From assembly GCF_021729015.1 (NCBI RefSeq), contig NZ_JAJQQZ010000004.1, positions 1-64,000 on the forward strand: a stretch of 64,000 nucleotides of DNA. Reading direction: 5' to 3'. Position numbers and translations under genes: made by a program. The stretch comes from Halobacterium rubrum (GTDB taxonomy: Archaea > Halobacteriota > Halobacteria > Halobacteriales > Halobacteriaceae). The notes beneath the pieces were generated by a model that had not been told where the DNA came from, did no database searches, and was given only the letters and a program-made list of their open reading frames with translations. Positions 1,045 to 28,679 of the stretch are shown one piece after another (the stretch's first letter is position 1; each line of letters opens with the position of its first letter).

Positions 1045-2520
1045 ATGAGTTCTGAGAGCTATACTCCCCACAACCGGATTGCAACCGGCGTTTCGGGCGT
1101 CGACGAGATTCTCGAAGGCGGCTATCTCCCCGAATCCGCCACACTCGTGCGAGGACCACCTGGCTCCGGTAAGTCGATTTTCTCACTGCACTATCTTGCC
1201 GCTGGCATCGACGCCGGCGAGACCGGGCTCTACATCAATCTCGGTGAGCCCGAGACCTACATCCGGGACACCGCCCGGCACTTCGGCTTCGATATCGATT
1301 CATTGGCGTTCCTCAACCTCTCTGCGTCCGGCGACCAGTTTCAGGGCGAAGAGACGTACACGCTGTTCGAGTCCGGCGAGGTCGAAACACCCTCGCTAGT
1401 CGAGAATATCCGCACAGAGATCCAGGAGATCAACCCGGACCGAGTCGTCGTAGACCCAGTCACCGAGTTTCGGTATCTGGCCCCGGACGAGCACCAGTTC
1501 CGCTCACAGATTCTCGGCCTGATTAACCTGCTCAAAAGCGAGGGTGCGACGGTCCTGTTGACCTCACAGGCTGCCGCGTCGATGCCCGACGACGACCTAC
1601 AGTTCCTCGTCGACGCCGTCATCAACATGGGGAAAGACTCGGACCGCCGGACGTTCCACGTCTCGAAGTTCCGCGGCTCCTCGGTCCGGTCCGGTCACCA
1701 CACACTCCAGATTACCGACGAGGGGATGCGAGTGTGGCCGCGACTCGACCCGAACCGTCACGAGCGCGAGCACACCCCGGCGAAACTCTCCTCTGGCGTC
1801 CCGGCACTCGACTCACTCCTGTCGGGCGGGCTGATGTCCGGAACGATAACGTTCCTGAGCGGTCCGACCGGCGTCGGCAAGACCACGACGGGCCTCCAGT
1901 TCATGAAGGAGGCTGCGGGCCGGGGCCAGCGCTCGGTCCTCTACAGTTTCGAAGAGGACCGGACCACGCTGTTCGAACGCGCGAGCGCCGTCAACATCCC
2001 CCTGGCCGAGATGATCGACCGGGGCACACTCAACGTCGAAGTGATCGGACCAGAGGAACTCACAGTCGACGAGTTCACCCACCACGTCCGGGACGAAGTG
2101 GAGGACAACGACGCGGAAATCGTGATGGTCGACGGCACGAGTGGGTTCGAGCAGTCGCTTCGCGGGACGAGCGAGAACCCGATGCAGGACCTCGTTAGGA
2201 TCGGCCGCTACCTCCGCAACATGGGTGTAACCGGGCTTGTCAGCAACGAAGTGCACAACATCACCGGCGAGTTCCGCGCGACGGACCAGGGGATGAGTTA
2301 CCTGGCCGACAGCATCGTCGTACTGCGCCACGTCGAGTACAAGGGATCGCTCCGGAAGGTGATCGGCGTTCTCAAGATGCGCACCAGCGAGTACGAGAAC
2401 CAGCTCCGGGAACTGGAGATAACTGAACACGGGCTGCGGGTGGGGGACTCGTTGCCCGAACTCCGGGGGATTCTCACCGGCACACCGACCTGGGACGACA
2501 GCGGTGATGATGGAGACTGA
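1045..2520 (+). CDS. KaiC-like double RecA-domain ATPase
   Basis: 491 residues with two tandem KaiC/RecA-type ATPase domains. The first has Walker A GPPGSGKS (residues 37-44) and Walker B-like RVVVDPVTEF; the second has Walker A GPTGVGKT (273-280) and Walker B EIVMVDG. Archaeal KaiC homologues (Cir proteins) are cytosolic ATPases linked to diurnal expression or signalling rather than a proven clock. The start at 1045 (MSSESYTP) is preferred over an ATG ten codons upstream because the upstream residues do not look like KaiC. The 3' end overlaps the start of the next gene by 14 bases, so this is the first gene of a translationally coupled operon with two histidine kinases. No KaiA or KaiB is visible. 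Confidence 0.9.
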   Translation: MSSESYTPHNRIATGVSGVDEILEGGYLPESATLVRGPPGSGKSIFSLHYLAAGIDAGETGLYINLGEPETYIRDTARHFGFDIDSLAFLNLSASGDQFQGEETYTLFESGEVETPSLVENIRTEIQEINPDRVVVDPVTEFRYLAPDEHQFRSQILGLINLLKSEGATVLLTSQAAASMPDDDLQFLVDAVINMGKDSDRRTFHVSKFRGSSVRSGHHTLQITDEGMRVWPRLDPNRHEREHTPAKLSSGVPALDSLLSGGLMSGTITFLSGPTGVGKTTTGLQFMKEAAGRGQRSVLYSFEEDRTTLFERASAVNIPLAEMIDRGTLNVEVIGPEELTVDEFTHHVRDEVEDNDAEIVMVDGTSGFEQSLRGTSENPMQDLVRIGRYLRNMGVTGLVSNEVHNITGEFRATDQGMSYLADSIVVLRHVEYKGSLRKVIGVLKMRTSEYENQLRELEITEHGLRVGDSLPELRGILTGTPTWDDSGDDGD

Positions 2521-3643
2521 GACGCCGGCCTGGGGAGCCGATGTCCAGCTCGGAACAGAGGCCGCACCAGCCCAGGTCCTTCCGATGCTCTCACATGGGG
2601 GCAACCAGCGTGTGCTGGACGACTGGATACAGCGACAGGACCGCTACGAGGTCGTCTCGGGCGACCCCGATGCGCTCCCCGAGGCAGACATCGACGTCGT
2701 CGTTCTCGACGAGCCCTCACTCCGCGAGCACCGGACGGAGATTCGAGAGCGAAAAGCGGACGCAGACGCCATCCTCCCGGTGCTCCTCGTGAGCTCCGAC
2801 ACGACAGGGGACGCCTGGACGCAGACGGAGACACAGCCAGCGGTCTCAGAGCTCTTCGACGAGGTCCTGAAGACGCCCATCGAGACCGCGGAGTTGCGGA
2901 GTCGCCTCGACACGCTCGTTCGAACGCGAGCGCAGTCCATCGCGCTGAAACAGAACAGCGACCAGCTGTTGCTGTTGAACCGGATCACTCGACACGACAT
3001 CCGCAACGACATGAGCGTCATCATCGGCTGGACCGAGCAGATCGCTGCCCACACCGACGACGCCGGTGACGAGATCCGGCAGCGAGTCCTGGACAGTAGC
3101 CAGCACGTCGTGGACCTCACGAAGGCCGTCCGCGAGTTCGTCGACACACTCCAGACGGCCGGTGACCCGGAACTGGAGGCGGTCGAACTGGGGCCTGTCG
3201 CGACGGCCGAGCTCACGAAACGCCGCGAGGCCTTCGACGACGCGGAGTTCGTCGTCGCCGGTGGTGAGATTCCACAGGTGCACGTCCGGGCGAACAACCT
3301 CCTCGCGTCGGTGTTCAGAAACGTCCTGAACAACGCCGTCCAGCACAACGACAGTGCGACTCCGCGCGTGGAGATCGCTGTCGAAGCGCGCAGTGACACG
3401 GTCGTCGTCACCGTCGCCGACAACGGCCCAGGTATTCCGCCCGACCGACGGGACGCAGTCCTGGGGCGGACCAAACAGGGGCTCGACCACCCCGCTGCGG
3501 GGCTCGGGCTCTACCTCGTCGACACACTCGTCGCCCAGTACGGCGGAACCCTCCAGATCCGCGACGCCGACCTGGGTGGCGCCGCCATCGAGATCGAGCT
3601 ACCGAACGCACCAGCGGAGGCGGGGGAACTCCGAGACCGATGA
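2507..3643 (+). CDS. Histidine kinase with N-terminal receiver-like domain
   Basis: About 378 residues, soluble, no membrane segments. Residues ~24-140 fold-match a receiver-like domain: a strand ending in VVVLDEP is kept, but the acidic pair after strand 1 and the normal Lys-Pro switch motif are absent, so it is probably a pseudo-receiver. A HisKA dimerisation helix follows with phospho-acceptor motif ITRHDIRNDM (His near residue 163), then a HATPase domain with N-box VFRNVLNNAVQHND, G1 box VADNGPGIP and G2 box GLGLYLVDTL. The start lies inside the kaiC-like gene (GTG 2504, ATG 2507 or ATG 2510 are all possible) and the stop overlaps the next gene by four bases (ATGA). The likely role is transferring a signal within the KaiC-linked operon; the partner response regulator is not in the window. 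Confidence 0.87.
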   Translation: MMETETPAWGADVQLGTEAAPAQVLPMLSHGGNQRVLDDWIQRQDRYEVVSGDPDALPEADIDVVVLDEPSLREHRTEIRERKADADAILPVLLVSSDTTGDAWTQTETQPAVSELFDEVLKTPIETAELRSRLDTLVRTRAQSIALKQNSDQLLLLNRITRHDIRNDMSVIIGWTEQIAAHTDDAGDEIRQRVLDSSQHVVDLTKAVREFVDTLQTAGDPELEAVELGPVATAELTKRREAFDDAEFVVAGGEIPQVHVRANNLLASVFRNVLNNAVQHNDSATPRVEIAVEARSDTVVVTVADNGPGIPPDRRDAVLGRTKQGLDHPAAGLGLYLVDTLVAQYGGTLQIRDADLGGAAIEIELPNAPAEAGELRDR

Positions 3644-5823
3644 CTCCTGACGAGTCTGCCGACTCCCGCAGCCGTGTCCTCCCGCTGGTCTCGGATGCGG
3701 GCAATCGTCAGTTGCTCGTGGAGTGGCTCACCGACCACCCTTCCTACGAGCCTGTCGAGTTGGCCGACGGGCTGGCAGCGACCGACTTCGACGTCTGCAT
3801 CCTCGACAGCGGGGCGTTCCAAGAGCACCTCGATGCGCTCAGCGCGAAGAAGTCGGCGACCGAGCCCGTCCTGTTGCCGTACCTGCTGTTGTTTCCGGAC
3901 GGCAAGTCCGACGTCATCGACACGGACGCCGGACAGCTTGCAGACAACGTCGTCACGGAGTCGGTCGACGAAATCGTGACTCTGCCGATTCAGCAGGCAG
4001 AACTCCAGTGGCGGCTGTCAGCGTTGCTCCGGCTCCGAGAGCAGTCGACGACGCTACGCAACCGGGAGCGAGAACTCGAACGGCAGGTCGACCTCTTCGA
4101 GAAGGCCCAGGACATCGCGAGTGTCGGCGCCTGGGAGTACGATATCGATGACGAGGAGGGGTGGTGGACCGAAGCGGTGTATCGAATCCACGGCCTCTCA
4201 GAAGACGTGACGGCGTCCCCGGAGTCGAGCCTCCAGCAGTTCCACCCCGACGACCGCCCGGCCGTGAAGGCGGCGTTCGAGACGGCTGTCGACGACGGTG
4301 AACCCTACGACGTCGAAGCGCGCCTCGTCACTGGCGCCGACGATACTCGCTGGGTCCGGACACGCGGGGAACCGCAGTACGAAGATGGGGAAGTGGTCCG
4401 GATTCGCGGGACGGTCCAGGACATCACGGAACGCAAGGAGCGCGAGCGTAACCTCCAGCGGATCAAGCAAGCGGTCGAATCCGCTGGCCACGCGATCTAC
4501 ATCACCGACCCGGAGGGCGTCATCGAGTACGTCAATCCGGCGTTCGAAGCGGGGACCGGCTTCGCTGAGGAGGACGTCGTCGGCGAGACACCGCACGTGT
4601 TGACCTCTGGTGAGATGTCCGACGAGTACTTCGCAGACCTCTGGAGCACGCTTCGATCGGGGGAGGTGTGGGAAGAGGAGATCGTCAACCGCCGCAAGAA
4701 CGGGGAGACGTACACGGCGATACAGACAATCGCGCCGGTCACTGACGGTGACGACATCCACGCGTTCGTGGCGATCCACGACGACATCACGGAGCGCAAG
4801 CAGCGTGAGGAGCGGCTCACGCGACGCACGAAAGCGGTCGAGGAGGCGCCAGTCGGAATCGGCATCTCGGACCCCGGTCAGGAAGACAATCCGCTCATCT
4901 ACGTGAACGACGCGTTCGTGGAGATGACGGGGTACTCGCGAGCGGAGATTCTGGGGTCGAACTGTCGGTTCCTGCAGGGCGACGGTACAGACCCGGACCG
5001 AGTGGCGAGCATCCGGGCGGCGATCGACGACGAAGAGCCGGTCTCGGTCGAGCTCCGGAACTACCGCAAGGACGGCACGGAGTTCTGGAACCACCTCGAG
5101 GTCGCGCCGGTCGAGAACGACGCTGGGGAGGTCGTCAACTGGATCGGGTTCCAGCAGGACGTGACCGAGCGGAAACAACGGCAGGAGCAGCTGTCAGTGC
5201 TCGACCGGGTGTTGCGACACAACCTGCGAAACGACATGAACATGATTCGGGGGCTGGCCGAGACCATCCGCTCCGAAGCCACGGGCGAGGTCGCGGATTT
5301 CGCGGCTCGCATCGTCGAGAAGAGCGACCAGCTGGTCGAGCTGACCGAGAAAGAGCGACAGATAACTGCGCTGTTGCAGGAGGACCCGGAGTACGAGCAG
5401 TTCGAGGTGGGAGACCGGCTCCGAACCGTCGTGTCGACAATCGAGTCGAAGCATCCGGACGCGAGAATAAATGTGGACTGCCCCGAGGGCATCACTGTCG
5501 ATGCGACGACGCGGTTCGAGCAGGCGATCAGCGAACTGGTCACGAACGCCGTCGTCCACAGTGACTCGCTGTCGCCCGAAGTGACACTTTCGGCCACGCA
5601 GACCGCTGAAACCGTCCGCATCGAGATAGCCGACGACGGGCCACAGATTCCCGAGATGGAGCGGGAACTGCTGACGGGCCAGACGGAGGAAACACCGCTG
5701 TACCACGGCAGTGGGCTCGGCCTGTGGCTCGTCAAACTACTCGTCACTCGCTCCCACGGCACCATCACGGTCGAAGCGAACACGCCGACGGGCAACGTCG
5801 TCACCATCGCACTGCCACGGTGA
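3640..5823 (+). CDS. Multi-PAS histidine kinase with a LOV-type PAS domain
   Basis: 727 residues, soluble. Order: receiver-like domain ~10-125, a short coiled coil ~128-152, PAS ~155-265, PAS ~270-390, a third PAS ~395-520, HisKA with RVLRHNLRNDM (His 527), and HATPase with ELVTNAVVHSD, IADDGPQIP and GSGLGLWLV. Each PAS ends with the usual D(I/V)TERK linker. The third PAS contains GSNCRFLQGDGTDP, matching the flavin-binding LOV signature with the photoactive Cys at residue 442. By family knowledge this predicts a blue-light or redox sensing kinase. The ATGA overlap couples it to the kinase upstream. Haloarchaeal PAS domains sometimes carry this motif without proof of flavin binding, so light sensing is inferred. 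Confidence 0.88.
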   Translation: MTPDESADSRSRVLPLVSDAGNRQLLVEWLTDHPSYEPVELADGLAATDFDVCILDSGAFQEHLDALSAKKSATEPVLLPYLLLFPDGKSDVIDTDAGQLADNVVTESVDEIVTLPIQQAELQWRLSALLRLREQSTTLRNRERELERQVDLFEKAQDIASVGAWEYDIDDEEGWWTEAVYRIHGLSEDVTASPESSLQQFHPDDRPAVKAAFETAVDDGEPYDVEARLVTGADDTRWVRTRGEPQYEDGEVVRIRGTVQDITERKERERNLQRIKQAVESAGHAIYITDPEGVIEYVNPAFEAGTGFAEEDVVGETPHVLTSGEMSDEYFADLWSTLRSGEVWEEEIVNRRKNGETYTAIQTIAPVTDGDDIHAFVAIHDDITERKQREERLTRRTKAVEEAPVGIGISDPGQEDNPLIYVNDAFVEMTGYSRAEILGSNCRFLQGDGTDPDRVASIRAAIDDEEPVSVELRNYRKDGTEFWNHLEVAPVENDAGEVVNWIGFQQDVTERKQRQEQLSVLDRVLRHNLRNDMNMIRGLAETIRSEATGEVADFAARIVEKSDQLVELTEKERQITALLQEDPEYEQFEVGDRLRTVVSTIESKHPDARINVDCPEGITVDATTRFEQAISELVTNAVVHSDSLSPEVTLSATQTAETVRIEIADDGPQIPEMERELLTGQTEETPLYHGSGLGLWLVKLLVTRSHGTITVEANTPTGNVVTIALPR

Positions 5824-6022: not shown

Positions 6023-7075
6023 ATGAAAGATACTCTCGGTTCCCCCGCCCTCCCGGTTGCCAGCGACGAACCGAGAGACGCTGCTGCTCGACGCGTCATC
6101 GACGGCGTCGCGACCCACGCGATTTTCGTGCTCGATACGGACGGGCACATCGTCACGTGGCCGGCTCCAGCCGAAGCACTCTACGGATACGACGCGGCGG
6201 AAGTTCTCGACAGCCACGTGCGGCTGCTGTTCGCCGACGACGAGGACGACGCAGACACCGATTCGCTTCCCTCTGACTTCTTCGAGGAGCCGACGACCGA
6301 CTCGGTGGAGATCGAACACTGGCACCGACAGGCAGATGGCTCCGTCTTCTGGGGGACGCTGACGCTGTCACCGCTGGGCGGTGACTCACTCCACGGGTAC
6401 GCCGCGGTCAGTCAGGACACCACGACGACCAAAGAGTACGAGCGGATGCTGGAACGCCAGAACGACCGGCTCAAGGAGTTCACCGACATCCTCGCACACG
6501 ACCTCAGAAACCCGCTGAACGTCATCGATGGGCACCTCACCCTGTACGAAGACACCGGCGACGAGGACCACCTCGAAACCATCGACGAGACGACCGACCG
6601 GATGGCACAGCTCGTCGACGACTTGCTCCGTGTGGCCCGACAGGGAGACGTCGTCACGGACCCGGAGCCGACCGACATCGGAGCGGTCATCGATACCACC
6701 TGGCAACGCCTGGCCCCCACGGGTGCCACCCTGCACTACGAGACGGTTCGGTCGGTGAGCAGCGACCCCGACCGGCTCTCCGAACTGTTCGAGAACCTCT
6801 TCTCGAACGCCATCCACCACGGCGGAGCCGACGTATCGGTTCGCGTCGGCCCACTCGACACCGGATTCTACATCGAAGACGACGGGCCGGGAATCGACGA
6901 CGAGCACAAACCGGACGTCTTCGACCACGGATTCACTACCAGCGAATCTGGCCACGGATACGGGCTCTCGGTCGTCCGGACGATTGTCAACGCCCACGGC
7001 TGGGACATCGTCGCGACAGACGCACACCCCCACGGCGCACGCTTCGAAATCACCGGAATCGAACTACTCGGCTAA
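6023..7075 (+). CDS. PAS domain histidine kinase
   Basis: 350 residues, soluble. One PAS domain (~22-135) carries the typical AEALYGYDAAEVL helix and ends in VSQDTTTTKEYE. HisKA has ILAHDLRNPLNVI (His 159), and HATPase has LFENLFSNAIHHGG, IEDDGPGID and a G2 box GHGYGLSVVRTIV. The kinase lacks a receiver or output domain. It follows the KaiC operon in the same orientation after a 199-base gap and has its own start context, so it may be transcribed separately. The input ligand is unknown. Confidence 0.88.
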   Translation: MKDTLGSPALPVASDEPRDAAARRVIDGVATHAIFVLDTDGHIVTWPAPAEALYGYDAAEVLDSHVRLLFADDEDDADTDSLPSDFFEEPTTDSVEIEHWHRQADGSVFWGTLTLSPLGGDSLHGYAAVSQDTTTTKEYERMLERQNDRLKEFTDILAHDLRNPLNVIDGHLTLYEDTGDEDHLETIDETTDRMAQLVDDLLRVARQGDVVTDPEPTDIGAVIDTTWQRLAPTGATLHYETVRSVSSDPDRLSELFENLFSNAIHHGGADVSVRVGPLDTGFYIEDDGPGIDDEHKPDVFDHGFTTSESGHGYGLSVVRTIVNAHGWDIVATDAHPHGARFEITGIELLG

Positions 7076-7204: not shown

Positions 7205-7876
7205 TCACGATTGACGCTCTACTACCGCGGTGATGAGTTTCACTTCCGCTTTCTGGAGATGTTCGCTGACCGTGTTAGCCGCACACCCGAGCTCTTCCGC
7301 TAACTCTGCGTGAGTCGTCTCTCGGGGGTGCCGATAGTACCCGTGTTCGAACGCCGTGACAACCGCCTCACGCTGCCGATCGCTCAACTCGGAGAATGCG
7401 TCCGCCCGTACCGACGGCCGTGACCCAACGTTCTCGATAGTCACGTCAATAGCCCGTGGTGCGGCGTCGACGGCGGCCTGCAGCGCCGAAGCGTCTCCTA
7501 TCACCTCGCCTCTCGTTTCGAAGTCGCTGTACGCGACTGGCGATCTGACGAGCAGCCCCGCTCGTGCCGTCAGTACGAGAAACGTCCTGAAGAACGGGAG
7601 TGCGCCGGGGTCTGCCGTGACCAACACCCACCTCGAACCACCGGTGGAAGTGGGTACCGCGACATCTTTGATTCCGTCGGTGCCACGCGCTGCATCGGCG
7701 AACACACCCGAATCACCGTCGACGTCGTACAGAACGGTTGCTAGGTCCTCTGCTGCGAGATTCCAGTCCACGAGACGCAACTGTGAGATCGCTGTCGATT
7801 CTGTCACCGCGACGTAGAACGACGGGAGGGCCCGGGGAGCCAACGTCGCTGAAACCTGGAGTCGAGTCAATGACAT
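7205..7876 (-). CDS. Bat-type HTH_10 transcription regulator
   Basis: 223 residues. The C-terminal ~55 residues form the HTH_10 domain: LSDRQREAVVTAFEHGYYRH, then ELAEELGCAANTVSEHLQKA, the canonical haloarchaeal Bat/HTH_10 layout. The N-terminal ~150 residues resemble the variable sensory half of this family (GAF/BAT-like) but carry no clear cofactor motif. Members activate or repress nearby metabolic genes; bacterio-opsin activator Bat is the founding case. It faces away from the amidohydrolase gene (97 bases between divergent starts), so that enzyme is its most likely target. It converges with the PAS kinase upstream. Confidence 0.85.
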   Translation of the reverse strand: MSLTRLQVSATLAPRALPSFYVAVTESTAISQLRLVDWNLAAEDLATVLYDVDGDSGVFADAARGTDGIKDVAVPTSTGGSRWVLVTADPGALPFFRTFLVLTARAGLLVRSPVAYSDFETRGEVIGDASALQAAVDAAPRAIDVTIENVGSRPSVRADAFSELSDRQREAVVTAFEHGYYRHPRETTHAELAEELGCAANTVSEHLQKAEVKLITAVVERQS

Positions 7877-9531: not shown

Positions 9532-10788
9532 CTACTCAGCCGCTGACGCGGCTTCCTTGAGGGTGGGGCTTCCTGTTTCCACGACGCGCTTTACATCCAC
9601 AACCTCGGAAGCGCCCGAGGAAGTGAACATAGGGAGCGCAGTCTCCACAGGCGTTGTGTCTTCGGACTGTCCCAGTCCTAGCTTCTCGAAACCGCGCGAC
9701 AAAATGTTGATCGCGGCATTTGCATCTCTATCCATCTCGAACCCACAGGCAGGACACGAGTGTTCACGCACCCACAACGGTTTGTCTGACTCGACACCAC
9801 ACGACGCGCACTCTTTGGTCGTGCCCGCTGGCTCGACCTCAACAAAGTGCGTGCCCTCACGGTTGCACTTGTACTCAAGCATCGTCGTGAACGTATCCCA
9901 CGCTGATGATGCAGTATTCCGACTGTTTCCAGCCGACTCCAGCAGTGACTTCACGTTCAAATCCTCGACGGCCACCAAGTCGTACTCGGTGGCGTAATAG
10001 TTCGAGAGTTTGTGCAGGAAGTCGTGGCGTTTCCGCCTGACTCGCTGGTGACACTCAGCTACTCTCAGCCGTTGTGTCTCCCAGTTGTTCGACCCGTGCT
10101 GTTTCCGTGAGAGCGACCGCTGTTCACGCTGGAGGCGTTCTCGTTCGTCTTAGAGGTCGAGTGAGCCGACAGCACGCCCGTCCGTGTCGTGAGCGTATTT
10201 GAGGATGCCCACGTCAATCCCGACACAGCGGTCAGGATTAGCTGGTTTCGGTGGCTCTTCTTTGCCTTCAACCGCGAAGGAAGCGTACCATTCACCAGTC
10301 CGTTCTTTCTTGATGCAGACCTCTTTGATGGTGACATCATCGGGGATTTCGCGGTGGGAACTGATTGGAATGTCAGCAAGTTTCGAGAGTGAGAGGACGG
10401 TCTGGCCGTTTTTCTTGTCGAACTCGAAGCCAGACTGAATGTACGTGAAACTCCTGAACTCGCTGGGTGCCTTCCAATTGAGACTCCCGACGTTGTACCC
10501 GTTCTGTTTGAGTTGTGAGAGTGCTTTGATGCTATCTTCGATTCGCATCACGGCAGCTTGTGCGACAGTTGAGTACAGGTCGGTAAGCTCGTTCCACCAG
10601 TCTTTGAGGTTGGGTAGTTGGTCGCGGACCTGGCGCACTCGCTGGTTGAGCGTTCCTGCTGATTCGGGGATTTGCTCGAACTCGTTGAGTGCGTGATTGT
10701 ACAGTTGCCGACAGGTATCGCGGTGGTAGTCCAGCGTCTCGCGCTGGGCTTCTGTTGGGTGGAGGCGATACCTGTAGGCGTAGTGCAT
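9532..10788 (-). pseudogene. tnpB: RNA-guided endonuclease TnpB with one in-frame stop
   Basis: From ATG 10788 the frame reads a normal TnpB N-terminus (MHYAYRYRLHPTEAQRE...) to GRAVGSLDL, then meets TAA at 10150-10152. The same frame continues, uninterrupted, as DERERLEREQRSLSRKQHG and on through LVAVEDLNVKSLL (RuvC Glu motif), the zinc ribbon CASCG...CPACG and MDRDANAAINIL (RuvC final Asp), to a stop in the right-end hairpin. Total 419 codons including both stops. The damage is a single nonsense codon just after the RuvC-I motif VGIDVGILKYA. Either the gene died recently or the element survives as an RNA source. The C-terminal residues SPTLKEAASAAE are encoded by the terminal hairpin. Confidence 0.85.
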
Positions 10789-20423: not shown

Positions 20424-22208
20424 ATGGCTTCGAAACTGACGAGACGGCGGCTCCTGCAGGCGTGTGCCGCGCTCGGGGCTGCCAGTACCGTGCCCGGATA
20501 CGCGACCGCGGAGTCGGAGCCGGACCTAGAGAAGTTCGTGCAGCCCCTCCCGATCCCGTCGGTCCGCGAGCCTGATGGGAAACGGCAGGGCGCCGACTAC
20601 TACGAGATCCCGATTCGTGAGTTCGACCAACAGGTCCACCCGGACCTCCCACCGACCACGTTCTGGGGGTTCGACGGCACTGTCCCGGGGCCAGTCGTGA
20701 AAGCCCGGCGGAACGAACAGATTAAACTCCGCTTCGACAACACCGACCTGCCGTCGGACCACCTCTTCGACATTGACGACCGGATTCACGGCACTTCACC
20801 GGAGGACTACCCGGGCCACGACGACCCCGTTCCGGACGTCCGCACCGTGATCCACCAGCACGGGCTCAACGTCGAACCGGAAAGCGACGGTCAGGCGACC
20901 GCCTGGAAGTCACCGGACGGCACCACCGGGCCCCGGTTCGTCAAGCACGTCCACGACCTCCCGAACCGTCAGCCGAGGATGACCGCGACCTACCACGACC
21001 ACGCACTCGGCGTCAGCCGGCTGAACAACTACGCCGGCCTGAACGGGTTCTACGTCATCGAGAGCCCGCACGAACAGCGGCTGAACCTGCCCAGCGGCGA
21101 GTACGACGTCCCGGTGATGCTCCAGGACAAGACGTTCGAAGCCGACGGCTCGCTGCACTACCCGAGTTCGTTCGTGCCGAACTTCGCGGGCGACACCGCA
21201 TTCGTCAACGGCGCAGTGTGGCCGTACATGGAGGTCGAACCCCGCCGCTACCGGTTCCGACTCGTCAACCAGTCGAACGGCCGGACGTTCGACCTCGCGC
21301 TTGAAGGCAGTCACAACGATGACGATGGGCACTCGGACGACGCTGCCGTGCCCCTTCTCTACCAGTTCGCGCCTGACCAGGGGTTCCTGAACAATGTCGT
21401 CCCCATCGGCCCGGGCCAAGACCTCGAGTCGCTGGTTCTGGGGCCCTTCGAGCGGGCTGAGGTTGTGGTCGATTTCTCCGGCCACGAGGGCGAAACGTTC
21501 ACTGTCACGAACGACGCCGAATTCCCGTTCTCGGGCGGCCAGAATGGAGACGGCAGCCATGGCAGCCACGGCAACGGTGGCGACTCCGACACCCACCTCG
21601 GCGAAATCATGCAGTTTCGGGTCACCGACCCCGACCACAAGGTCGTCGACGACAGCGCCCATCCGCGCAACCTATCGCTCCCGACACATCCGGGATACAG
21701 CGAGCAGGCCGCCAAGCAGACCCGGCACATGACAATGGGAATGCGAATGGACGACGGACTCGAGACCCACGTCCTGAACGGGAAAACGTTCAGCGACGGG
21801 GGCGTCGACGCGACGCCCCAACTCGGCACCACCGAAGTGTGGGAACTCGAAAACAACACGATGCACACGCATCCGATCCACCTCCACCTCGTCGAGTTCC
21901 GTGTAATCGGGCGCGGCCCAGACGGCACCGAGGACCCCGCACCCAACGAACGCGGCCCCAAAGACGTCGTCCGCGTCGACCCCGACGAAACAGTCCGAAT
22001 CATCACCAAGTTCGGTGACTTCACCGGCCGGTATCCCTGGCACTGTCACGTCCTCGAACACGAAGAGCAGGCGATGATGCGCCCCTTCGAGGTCGTCGCT
22101 GGTAACTCCGCCAGACAGGGTCAGAACAACGGCCACGGGCCCGGTAACGGCAACGGCTCTGACAGAAGCAGTCAAGGTCAAGACAATCCGTCGGGTAGAA
22201 GCCAGTAA
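20424..22208 (+). CDS. Multicopper oxidase (laccase/CotA-like), Tat-exported
   Basis: 594 residues, Tat signal with LTRRRLLQACAALG. All four copper motifs are present: HQHGLN (first His 144), YHDHALG, HTHPIHLHLVEF (first His 481) and WHCHVLEHEEQAMM (type-1 Cys 541 with following Met ligand). Three cupredoxin domains fit the length. It should oxidise phenols, metals or bilirubin-like compounds with oxygen outside the cell. The methionine-poor His insert GDGSHGSHGNGGDSDTH near residue 375 and the Gly/Asn-rich tail are unusual. The stop TAA is formed at the very edge of the TnpB element (terminal GTAAACTAC), so the original C-terminus may have been cut or changed. It is last gene of the LVIVD operon. 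Confidence 0.92.
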   Translation: MASKLTRRRLLQACAALGAASTVPGYATAESEPDLEKFVQPLPIPSVREPDGKRQGADYYEIPIREFDQQVHPDLPPTTFWGFDGTVPGPVVKARRNEQIKLRFDNTDLPSDHLFDIDDRIHGTSPEDYPGHDDPVPDVRTVIHQHGLNVEPESDGQATAWKSPDGTTGPRFVKHVHDLPNRQPRMTATYHDHALGVSRLNNYAGLNGFYVIESPHEQRLNLPSGEYDVPVMLQDKTFEADGSLHYPSSFVPNFAGDTAFVNGAVWPYMEVEPRRYRFRLVNQSNGRTFDLALEGSHNDDDGHSDDAAVPLLYQFAPDQGFLNNVVPIGPGQDLESLVLGPFERAEVVVDFSGHEGETFTVTNDAEFPFSGGQNGDGSHGSHGNGGDSDTHLGEIMQFRVTDPDHKVVDDSAHPRNLSLPTHPGYSEQAAKQTRHMTMGMRMDDGLETHVLNGKTFSDGGVDATPQLGTTEVWELENNTMHTHPIHLHLVEFRVIGRGPDGTEDPAPNERGPKDVVRVDPDETVRIITKFGDFTGRYPWHCHVLEHEEQAMMRPFEVVAGNSARQGQNNGHGPGNGNGSDRSSQGQDNPSGRSQ

Positions 22209-26747: not shown

Positions 26748-28679
26748 TCAGTACCGCAGCAGGCGCATGCCGTTGCCAATCACGGCGAGGACGCTGGCCT
26801 CGTGGACGAGCATCCCGAGCGCGAGGGTAACGTAGCTCGTCAGCACGCCGGCGAGCAGCATCGTCACCACCACGAGGGCCAGCCCGACGTTCTCGAGGAC
26901 GTTCCAGCGGGTGGCTTTGCTGAGTTTCACCGCGTAGGGGATGCGTTCGAGGTCGTCGGCCATCAGCGCAATGTCCGCTGTCTCGATGGCGGTGTCCGTC
27001 CCAGCCGCACCCATGGCAATGCCGACGTCAGCGGTCGCCAGCGCCGGCGCATCGTTGATGCCGTCGCCGGTCATCGCCACGACGTGCCCGTTGGCCTGGT
27101 ACTCCGTGACGACATCCTGCTTGTCCTCGGGCAGCAACTCGGCGCGGTAGTCGTCGATCCCGATCTCTTCGGCGACTGCGGCCGCGACGCGCTCGTTGTC
27201 GCCGGTCAGCATCACCGTCTCGATACCGGCATCCTGTAACTCCCGAACGACGCCCGGCGCGGCCTCGCGCAGCTCATCGTGGAGCGCAATAGCACCGACT
27301 ACGGTCCCGTTGAGGACGACGTGGATGGCGGTCTCGCCGCGTTCCTCGCGGCCGCGGACGTACTCGGCGACTTCGTCCGGGAGATCAATGCCACGCTCGT
27401 CGAGGAGCGCGCGGTTCCCGACGACGATTTCGCGACCATCGTGGTGAGCGACAACGCCCTTGCCAGCGACTACTTCGAAGTCGTCCGGCTCGGGCAGCGA
27501 CCGCGTCTCCGTGGCAGGTGATTCGTGGTCTGCCCGGTCAACTGTCGTGCCACCGTCGGTCGCGGGCGTCTGGCGGTTCTGGGCCGCGTTGAGGATGGCG
27601 TCGCCGAGGTGGTGTTCGCTCTTCATTTCGGCGATGGCTGCCAGGTCCAGGACCCCATCGTCATCGATATCGAACCCCTCGACGTCAGCGACGGCCGTCT
27701 CGCCTTTCGTGAGGGTGCCGGTCTTGTCGAAGGCGATGAGGTCGATCTTGCCGGCCTGTTCGAGGTGCTCGCCACCCTTCATGAGGACGCCGTTCCGTGC
27801 GGCGTTGCCGATGGCCGAGACGATGCTAACTGGCGGCCCGATCACCAGGGCACCGGGACAGCCGATGACCAGCAGCGTCAGGGACAGAATCGCGTTCTGC
27901 GTGACAGCGTACGCACCGATAGACAGCACGATGATAGCGGGGGTGTAGTATTTGGCGAAGCGGTCGATGAGGCTCTCGGTGGGTGATTGCGCTTCCTGGG
28001 CCTCTTCGACGCGCTGGATGATCCGCTGGAGCGTGGTATCCGTCCCGGAGCCGGTAGTCCTGATCTCAATAGCTCCTTCTTGGTTGATAGTGCCGGCGTA
28101 GACCTCGTCGCCGTCGGCCTTGTGGACGGGCGCGCTCTCGCCGGTGACCGGCGCCTGATTGACGGCACTTTCACCATCGACGACCTCGCCGTCGACGGGA
28201 ATCTTCTCGCCGGGTTTGACGATGACGATCTCGCCCTTTTCGACCTCGCGGGCGGGCACCTCTTTTTGCTCGCCGTCACGGCGCACGGTGGCCGTGTCGG
28301 GCGTCATCTCGAGAAGCTCCTCGAGGGCGTTACGGGTCTTCCGCATCGTGCGGCCCTCGAGATACGAGCCCAGCGCGAACAGGAAGACCACCGCGGCGGC
28401 CTCCCAGTACGAGCCGATACCGATCGCGCCGATCGCCGCGAGCGTCACGAGCGTCTTGACACCGAGTGTTCGGCTTTTGACCTCGTGGTAGGCTGTCTTG
28501 GCGATGTCGTAGCCGCCGACGACGGCCGCGAGAATCAAGATTGCAGTACTCGCGGTATCGAAGGCGGGGCCCGGGACGTAGCCGATGCTCCACCCGCCAG
28601 CGTAGAACAGGCCACTCAAAACGACGATGATGGCCTTCCGGTGTTTGCGGTAGTACTGTTTGAGTGATTGGGTATCCAT
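26748..28679 (-). CDS. P1B-type heavy-metal translocating ATPase with CPG motif
   Basis: 643 residues, six or more helices, no internal HMA domain. P-type signatures are PVTGESAPVHK (actuator), DKTGTLTKGE (phospho-Asp 318), HHLGDAI (nucleotide binding, normally HP-containing in this class) and MLTGDN with GDGINDAPAL. The transport motif in helix six is IGCPGALVI (Cys274-Pro-Gly) rather than Cys-Pro-Cys of Zn/Cd/Cu pumps. It exports a metal ion from the cytoplasm; the metal cannot be assigned and the CPG variant could mean altered selectivity. It follows the HMA protein gene by 12 bases and precedes the FmdE-like gene, so the three form an operon. Confidence 0.9.
   Translation of the reverse strand: MDTQSLKQYYRKHRKAIIVVLSGLFYAGGWSIGYVPGPAFDTASTAILILAAVVGGYDIAKTAYHEVKSRTLGVKTLVTLAAIGAIGIGSYWEAAAVVFLFALGSYLEGRTMRKTRNALEELLEMTPDTATVRRDGEQKEVPAREVEKGEIVIVKPGEKIPVDGEVVDGESAVNQAPVTGESAPVHKADGDEVYAGTINQEGAIEIRTTGSGTDTTLQRIIQRVEEAQEAQSPTESLIDRFAKYYTPAIIVLSIGAYAVTQNAILSLTLLVIGCPGALVIGPPVSIVSAIGNAARNGVLMKGGEHLEQAGKIDLIAFDKTGTLTKGETAVADVEGFDIDDDGVLDLAAIAEMKSEHHLGDAILNAAQNRQTPATDGGTTVDRADHESPATETRSLPEPDDFEVVAGKGVVAHHDGREIVVGNRALLDERGIDLPDEVAEYVRGREERGETAIHVVLNGTVVGAIALHDELREAAPGVVRELQDAGIETVMLTGDNERVAAAVAEEIGIDDYRAELLPEDKQDVVTEYQANGHVVAMTGDGINDAPALATADVGIAMGAAGTDTAIETADIALMADDLERIPYAVKLSKATRWNVLENVGLALVVVTMLLAGVLTSYVTLALGMLVHEASVLAVIGNGMRLLRY

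Follow-up and report, generated by a model that had tools for sequence, protein, structure and literature searches.

Here we report that the start of contig NZ_JAJQQZ010000004.1 of Halobacterium rubrum (assembly GCF_021729015.1; positions 1 to 64,000 of this contig constitute the window analyzed here) encodes a two-domain KaiC-like ATPase (hereafter KaiC; 1045-2520, + strand) and two histidine kinases, HK1 (2507-3643, +) and HK2 (3640-5823, +), and that both kinases begin with the same pseudo-receiver domain (psREC). Comparison across genomes identifies the pair of psREC and KaiC as the conserved unit, whereas the effector attached to psREC changes. We propose, with belief and doubt in about equal measure, that these genes form a KaiC-centered signaling unit in which psREC docks on KaiC and HK2 joins KaiC state and blue light. 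In this unit, of a type widespread in haloarchaea, KaiC, presumably a hexamer, would serve as the hub. The psREC domains of HK1 and HK2 would dock on it, and docking would allow the attached enzyme to read, and perhaps to influence, the ATP or phosphorylation state of KaiC. Through the LOV domain of HK2, blue light and KaiC state could converge on one kinase, the phosphoryl output of which would pass to a response regulator encoded elsewhere.

The evidence for the pair comes from gene neighborhoods. A profile search of a contig collection with the KaiC alignment gave 7 loci, and neighborhoods were built instead from 391 whole genomes of Halobacteriales, 246 of which contain a close two-domain KaiC (E <= 1e-85). 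About 100 of these loci were taken with their flanks and genes were called, which yielded 105 KaiC genes (loci are designated L and genomes G in the following). A psREC gene is adjacent to KaiC at 99 of these 105 loci: it lies downstream and co-directional in 85 and divergent upstream in 11 (96 by gene calls), and a six-frame search added three (L091, L099, L119). Among kinases at position +1 relative to KaiC, 67 of 68 carry psREC, compared with none at +3 or further (Fisher p ~3e-21). The first-pass annotation had suggested that the kinases may read or set KaiC state with blue light as input. The linkage of KaiC to psREC partners, mostly kinases, is indeed far beyond chance, and a light input is a reasonable hypothesis because LOV partners occur in two distinct gene arrangements; the exact operon, by contrast, is not constant. 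KaiC plus a psREC protein is what persists, and the precise three-gene order with an intact LOV domain is rare. In two Halorussus-type genomes (L100 and L118) there are two KaiC paralogues with a psREC kinase on one side only, pointing outwards from a common gene block.

The psREC model was seeded from KaiC neighbors and was therefore tested genome-wide. In 40 genomes there were 39 psREC matches, and for 33 of them a two-domain KaiC is no more than two genes away. Of the 25 genomes that possess this class of KaiC, 24 also encode psREC; of the 95 that lack it, 7 do so (0 of 15 in the same 40-genome set and 7 of 80 additional ones; Fisher p ~6e-18, which counts genomes as independent and is indicative only). 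Matches far from any two-domain KaiC lie at G017:C3:400070, G034:C49:9580, G014:C1:460002 and G020:C1:108526.

The association extends beyond archaea. Among 292 cyanobacterial genomes, representing the single bacterial phylum in the extended search, psREC was detected in 11 with a model containing just one cyanobacterial row, and 12 of the 18 matches had a KaiC with 42-54% identity within ~1.5 kb. In Halothiobacillus, a protein composed of psREC, GAF, GGDEF and EAL domains is encoded directly 3' of KaiC (L060:10420-12729); this arrangement raises the possibility of a link from KaiC to cyclic di-GMP (c-di-GMP). Besides histidine kinases and this GGDEF-EAL protein, psREC is fused to a GAF-BAT-HTH_10 regulator in L041 and L104, and an almost stand-alone psREC of 119-147 amino acids, with weaker psREC scores, is found beside KaiC in L123, L127, L131 and L132. 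Because psREC follows KaiC across phyla while the fused effector changes, the most likely role of psREC is to dock on KaiC or to read it.

The domain itself, of approximately 130 residues, is not recognized by Pfam. The first-pass annotation had described one kinase as receiver-like; the receiver-like N terminus is real, and it is present in HK1 (2573-2959, +) as well as in HK2 (3673-4065, +; psREC match E 1.9e-45). An alignment of 35 psREC domains formed the basis of an AlphaFold model (AF2; pLDDT 89) and of the residue counts. The model has a receiver fold (VIA Z 12.5-14 over 103-121 residues; rmsd 2.2 over 118 residues). The lysine preceding the conserved proline is absent in 35 of 35 rows, and Asp46 is retained in 34 of 35. 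Given the receiver fold and the missing lysine, the shared domain is a pseudo-receiver by the usual definition (PMC12632262). No CikA or KaiA chain was among the 50 structural matches listed. HK1 combines psREC with a HisKA-like H-box (RHDIRND) and a HATPase domain and contains no PAS domain, whereas HK2 (727 amino acids) has the order psREC-PAS-PAS-LOV-HisKA-HATPase and the H-box RHNLRND. HATPase_c (PF02518) is recognized in both kinases (1.5e-19 and 4.3e-17) and HisKA scores below cut-off in both; with an H-box histidine and HATPase_c, HK1 and HK2 have the features of sensor histidine kinases. In a CikA-type input kinase the pseudo-receiver would lie C-terminal to the kinase and bind KaiB; we rejected this assignment, as psREC occupies the N-terminal side and the search for KaiB was negative (see below). 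At two other loci an HK2-type psREC gene is split over two frames (L069, 7461-8285 onward, and L082); these are likely pseudogenes or sequencing frameshifts.

Several observations weigh against the proposed unit. Among the called genes of the KaiC loci there is no KaiC-psREC fusion protein. psREC occurs in seven genomes without this KaiC, which show only weaker, partial KaiC matches, and G026 carries KaiC without psREC. As the psREC model derives from KaiC neighbors, it may miss distant psRECs elsewhere. HK2 has an atypical G1 box (DDGPQIP), and the operon contains no response regulator. The lack of a fusion and the psRECs without this KaiC would suit an alternative in which KaiC and the kinases are merely co-transcribed in one regulon and psREC regulates its own kinase, as does the pseudo-receiver of ShkA, with no contact to KaiC; there is precedent for the inhibition of a kinase by its own pseudo-receiver (PMC12632262). 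This alternative does not readily accommodate psREC on a transcription regulator, on a GGDEF-EAL protein or nearly on its own beside KaiC, where the common factor is KaiC and not the kinase, nor a psREC-KaiC link that spans archaea, cyanobacteria and one gammaproteobacterium, and we regard it as improbable.

If psREC docks on KaiC, signaling could run in either direction. We favor a flow from KaiC to the kinase, since psREC stays constant while the effectors attached to it differ. In the reverse case, psREC kinases would act as input kinases that set the state of KaiC, and KaiC would act on other targets, for example, transcription factors. The partners bear sensor domains (PAS, LOV, GAF), a light sensor on the kinase is well suited to an input route, and in cyanobacteria CikA serves as an input kinase (PMC12632262). 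Yet the Bat-type HTH and GGDEF-EAL partners resemble outputs, and it is KaiB to which the CikA pseudo-receiver binds (PMC12632262), a protein found neither in the genome studied here nor above cut-off in 59 relatives. Overall, we judge a reverse flow to be unlikely, at perhaps one chance in a handful or slightly better. With respect to possible outputs, in three loci of the same genus as the window (L042, L043, L044) a gene overlapping the KaiC start precedes KaiC, which is followed by a psREC kinase; in L042 this gene (2291-2992) encodes a response regulator of the REC-HalX type, which could be a cognate output.

Pfam recognizes three PAS domains in HK2, and the third (4834-5163, +) is a LOV domain by sequence, in agreement with the earlier claim that it carries Cys442 in a LOV motif. 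Cys442 lies in the motif GSNCRFLQ, and NYRKDG, FWN and Q occupy the conserved positions; the motif cysteine and the flavin-contact residues Asn, Asn and Gln are all present, and the domain is predicted to bind flavin. Its best NCBIfam match is to YtvA-type blue-light receptors (YtvA_fam, 1.5e-63), and its best PDB matches are LOV kinases (1e-42). It is the sole true LOV motif in its genome; a second pattern match reads GCRLLQ. A psREC-LOV kinase with an intact cysteine adjoins 20 of the 105 KaiC genes (18 by tally plus L031 and L119) in two arrangements. The co-directional set consists of the window, L031, L063, L065, L066, L068, L070, L074, L087 and L141. The divergent set, with GxDCRFLQ as the predominant motif, consists of L039, L109, L110, L113, L116, L119, L120, L129, L130 and L135. 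The two groups occupy different parts of the KaiC tree, in which crude N-terminal trimming shortened some rows and which was used only for the well-covered clade of the window and for separating the LOV groups. Of 29 LOV motif sites in 40 genomes, 6 are near a two-domain KaiC, compared with ~0.1 expected (estimated from the fraction of sequence covered).

A further point against our proposal concerns its light input. In three co-directional relatives the LOV cysteine is replaced, by Ser in Halorussus pelagicus (L064), by Arg in G315 (L067) and by Ala in G016 (L034), and light sensing is therefore not obligatory. These replacements are consistent with a LOV-like domain that is a redox or flavin sensor or a decaying PAS domain rather than a light sensor, which would be compatible with either direction of signaling, and Cys-less LOV receptors can still signal (PMC4682037). 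All key LOV residues are intact in the window, however, the cysteine is kept beside 20 of 105 KaiC genes in both arrangements, and the LOV domain of a haloarchaeal kinase was shown to be photoactive in high salt (PMC12202551). A function other than light sensing thus appears to us to be a minority possibility of low probability.

As the first-pass annotation had stated, KaiC is a double-domain homologue: its 491 amino acids contain two PF06745 domains (1e-75, Pfam), which places it in the two-domain KaiC superfamily, and it matches KaiC in the PDB at 7e-60. According to its alignment to solved KaiC structures, the CI domain has the Walker A motif GPPGSGK and a Gly at the position of Glu77, and the CII domain has an intact Walker motif GPTGVGK and the catalytic EE. 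The Walker lysines are conserved in 102 (Lys43) and 105 (Lys279) of the 105 homologues, and the CII Walker lysine, EE and the equivalent of Ser431 (S418) are invariant across all 105. The equivalent of Thr432 is Tyr419; this position is Y, N or H in 103 of the 105 homologues and never S or T. Against the NCBIfam model circ_KaiC, the protein scores 194.5 bits, with a cut-off of 546. KaiB (PF07689) had no match in the same genome and none above cut-off in 59 relatives, and the positive control, Synechococcus, was matched. Given the negative KaiB search and the lack of the Thr432 phosphosite, the system is not the cyanobacterial clock and the clock model is not directly applicable; together with the circ_KaiC score, these results led us to reject a clock KaiC. 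We also considered that the gene encodes the gas-vesicle regulator GvpD, since homologues are named gvpD in PLSDB records of several haloarchaeal plasmids and there is a weak match to GvpD_P-loop. This match reaches 21.3 bits against a cut-off of 24, far under the KaiC score, and no gas-vesicle gene was recognized beside the operon, so that we dropped this assignment as highly improbable.

The three overlapping genes predicted by the first-pass annotation are real open reading frames in the same direction. The KaiC start is the ATG at 1045; a second in-frame ATG is present at 1015, and homologues favor 1045. Candidate starts of HK1 are GTG 2504, ATG 2507, which gives the predicted 14-nucleotide (nt) overlap with KaiC, and ATG 2510, which gives 11 nt. 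Since an ATG at exactly -11 is seen in 14 of 85 co-directional loci, the 11-nt overlap is at least as likely. The overlap of HK1 and HK2 is exactly 4 nt (ATGA), as predicted. The proposal that coupled translation implies a stable stoichiometry is unsupported: HK1 is missing in L063, L066 and L068, where HK2 directly follows KaiC, and the spacing ranges from overlap to >200 nt. As had been noted, a further PAS kinase (6023-7075) and a Bat-type regulator with HTH_10 (7205-7876, minus strand) follow; both lack psREC, the kinase gene is separated from the operon by 199 nt and the regulator gene lies on the opposite strand, and we therefore dropped them as operon members and place them outside the conserved unit. 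The contig is 266 kb long and belongs to a haloarchaeal genome of 3.07 Mb. A 5S rRNA gene (156-277, +) lies at the extreme start of the contig, ~770 nt 5' of the KaiC operon, and the contig probably broke in an rRNA operon. Farther downstream, a TnpB-type RNA-guided nuclease is present in two pieces, the C-terminal and N-terminal halves (9532-9978 and 10150-10788, minus strand), apparently from a broken IS200/IS605 element, and genes for a multicopper oxidase and a heavy-metal P-type ATPase (20424-22208 and 26748-28679) suggest a metal-handling region.

The closest relatives of the window KaiC (83-89% identity) span four families (f1, f4, f5, f17), and some are plasmid-borne (Halorussus pelagicus NZ_CP035120). 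Identity is 84% to the KaiC of G004, of the same genus, compared with 89% to that of G387, of another family, and other genomes of the genus have a different KaiC, ~40-50% identical, or none. In the loci of the closest KaiC relatives, HK1 is ~61-68% and HK2 ~65-73% identical. This relatedness of all three proteins across families and plasmids fits the transfer of the cassette as a unit.

Parts of this arrangement have precedents. KaiC relatives of archaea were proposed to act as signal-transduction hubs in connection with two-component domains (Makarova, Galperin, Koonin 2017 mBio, as cited in PMC5847659); the present analysis covers the partner domain, its quantified linkage and the LOV version. 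In Haloferax volcanii, cirC, encoding a double-domain KaiC, was reported in 2014 to adjoin a kinase gene annotated as 'fixL', and the cir genes are expressed rhythmically under light-dark cycling (PMC3941300); the passages of that report consulted here mention no LOV or shared partner domain. Cyanobacterial KaiABC with CikA and SasA likewise combines KaiC with partner kinases and a pseudo-receiver (in CikA and KaiA), but here KaiB was not found, the Thr432 phosphosite is absent and psREC is N-terminal to the kinase, and the CikA pseudo-receiver binds KaiB. Proteobacterial kai operons, such as that of Rhodobacter sphaeroides, also encode KaiC together with a PAS-domain protein and retain KaiB (PMC6627678). 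ALovD-1, a LOV histidine kinase of haloarchaea that is photoactive in high salt, resembles HK2 in having LOV within a multi-PAS kinase; no KaiC link or operon is discussed in that paper (PMC12202551). A review of 2025 was aware of no work on the function of an archaeal pseudo-receiver (PMC12632262). In our literature search, which covered openly accessible papers, we found no paper joining KaiC, psREC and LOV. The earlier remark that this operon was not known as a described archaeal system has to be qualified in view of the hub proposal of 2017 and the adjacent kinase reported in 2014.

More speculatively, and with less confidence than in the unit itself, psREC may be a domain dedicated to KaiC docking that is conserved among haloarchaea, cyanobacteria and proteobacteria. 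It would connect exchangeable outputs (a histidine kinase, a Bat transcription factor or enzymes of c-di-GMP signaling) to a KaiC hub that works without KaiB. Through the LOV kinase of the lineage described here, this hub could respond to blue light and so provide archaea with a KaiC switch or timer that is set by light and needs neither KaiA nor KaiB. Archaeal genomes are rich in KaiC relatives, the partners and outputs of which constitute a gap that a single KaiC-tracking domain fused to recognizable outputs could address. psREC provides a concrete handle on the face of KaiC that would be bound, on the reading of its ATPase state and on the effect of light through LOV. It would also be a candidate molecular basis for the light-dependent behavior of haloarchaeal cir genes (PMC3941300), and the LOV version suggests a testable route for light to act on KaiC beyond the classical clock.

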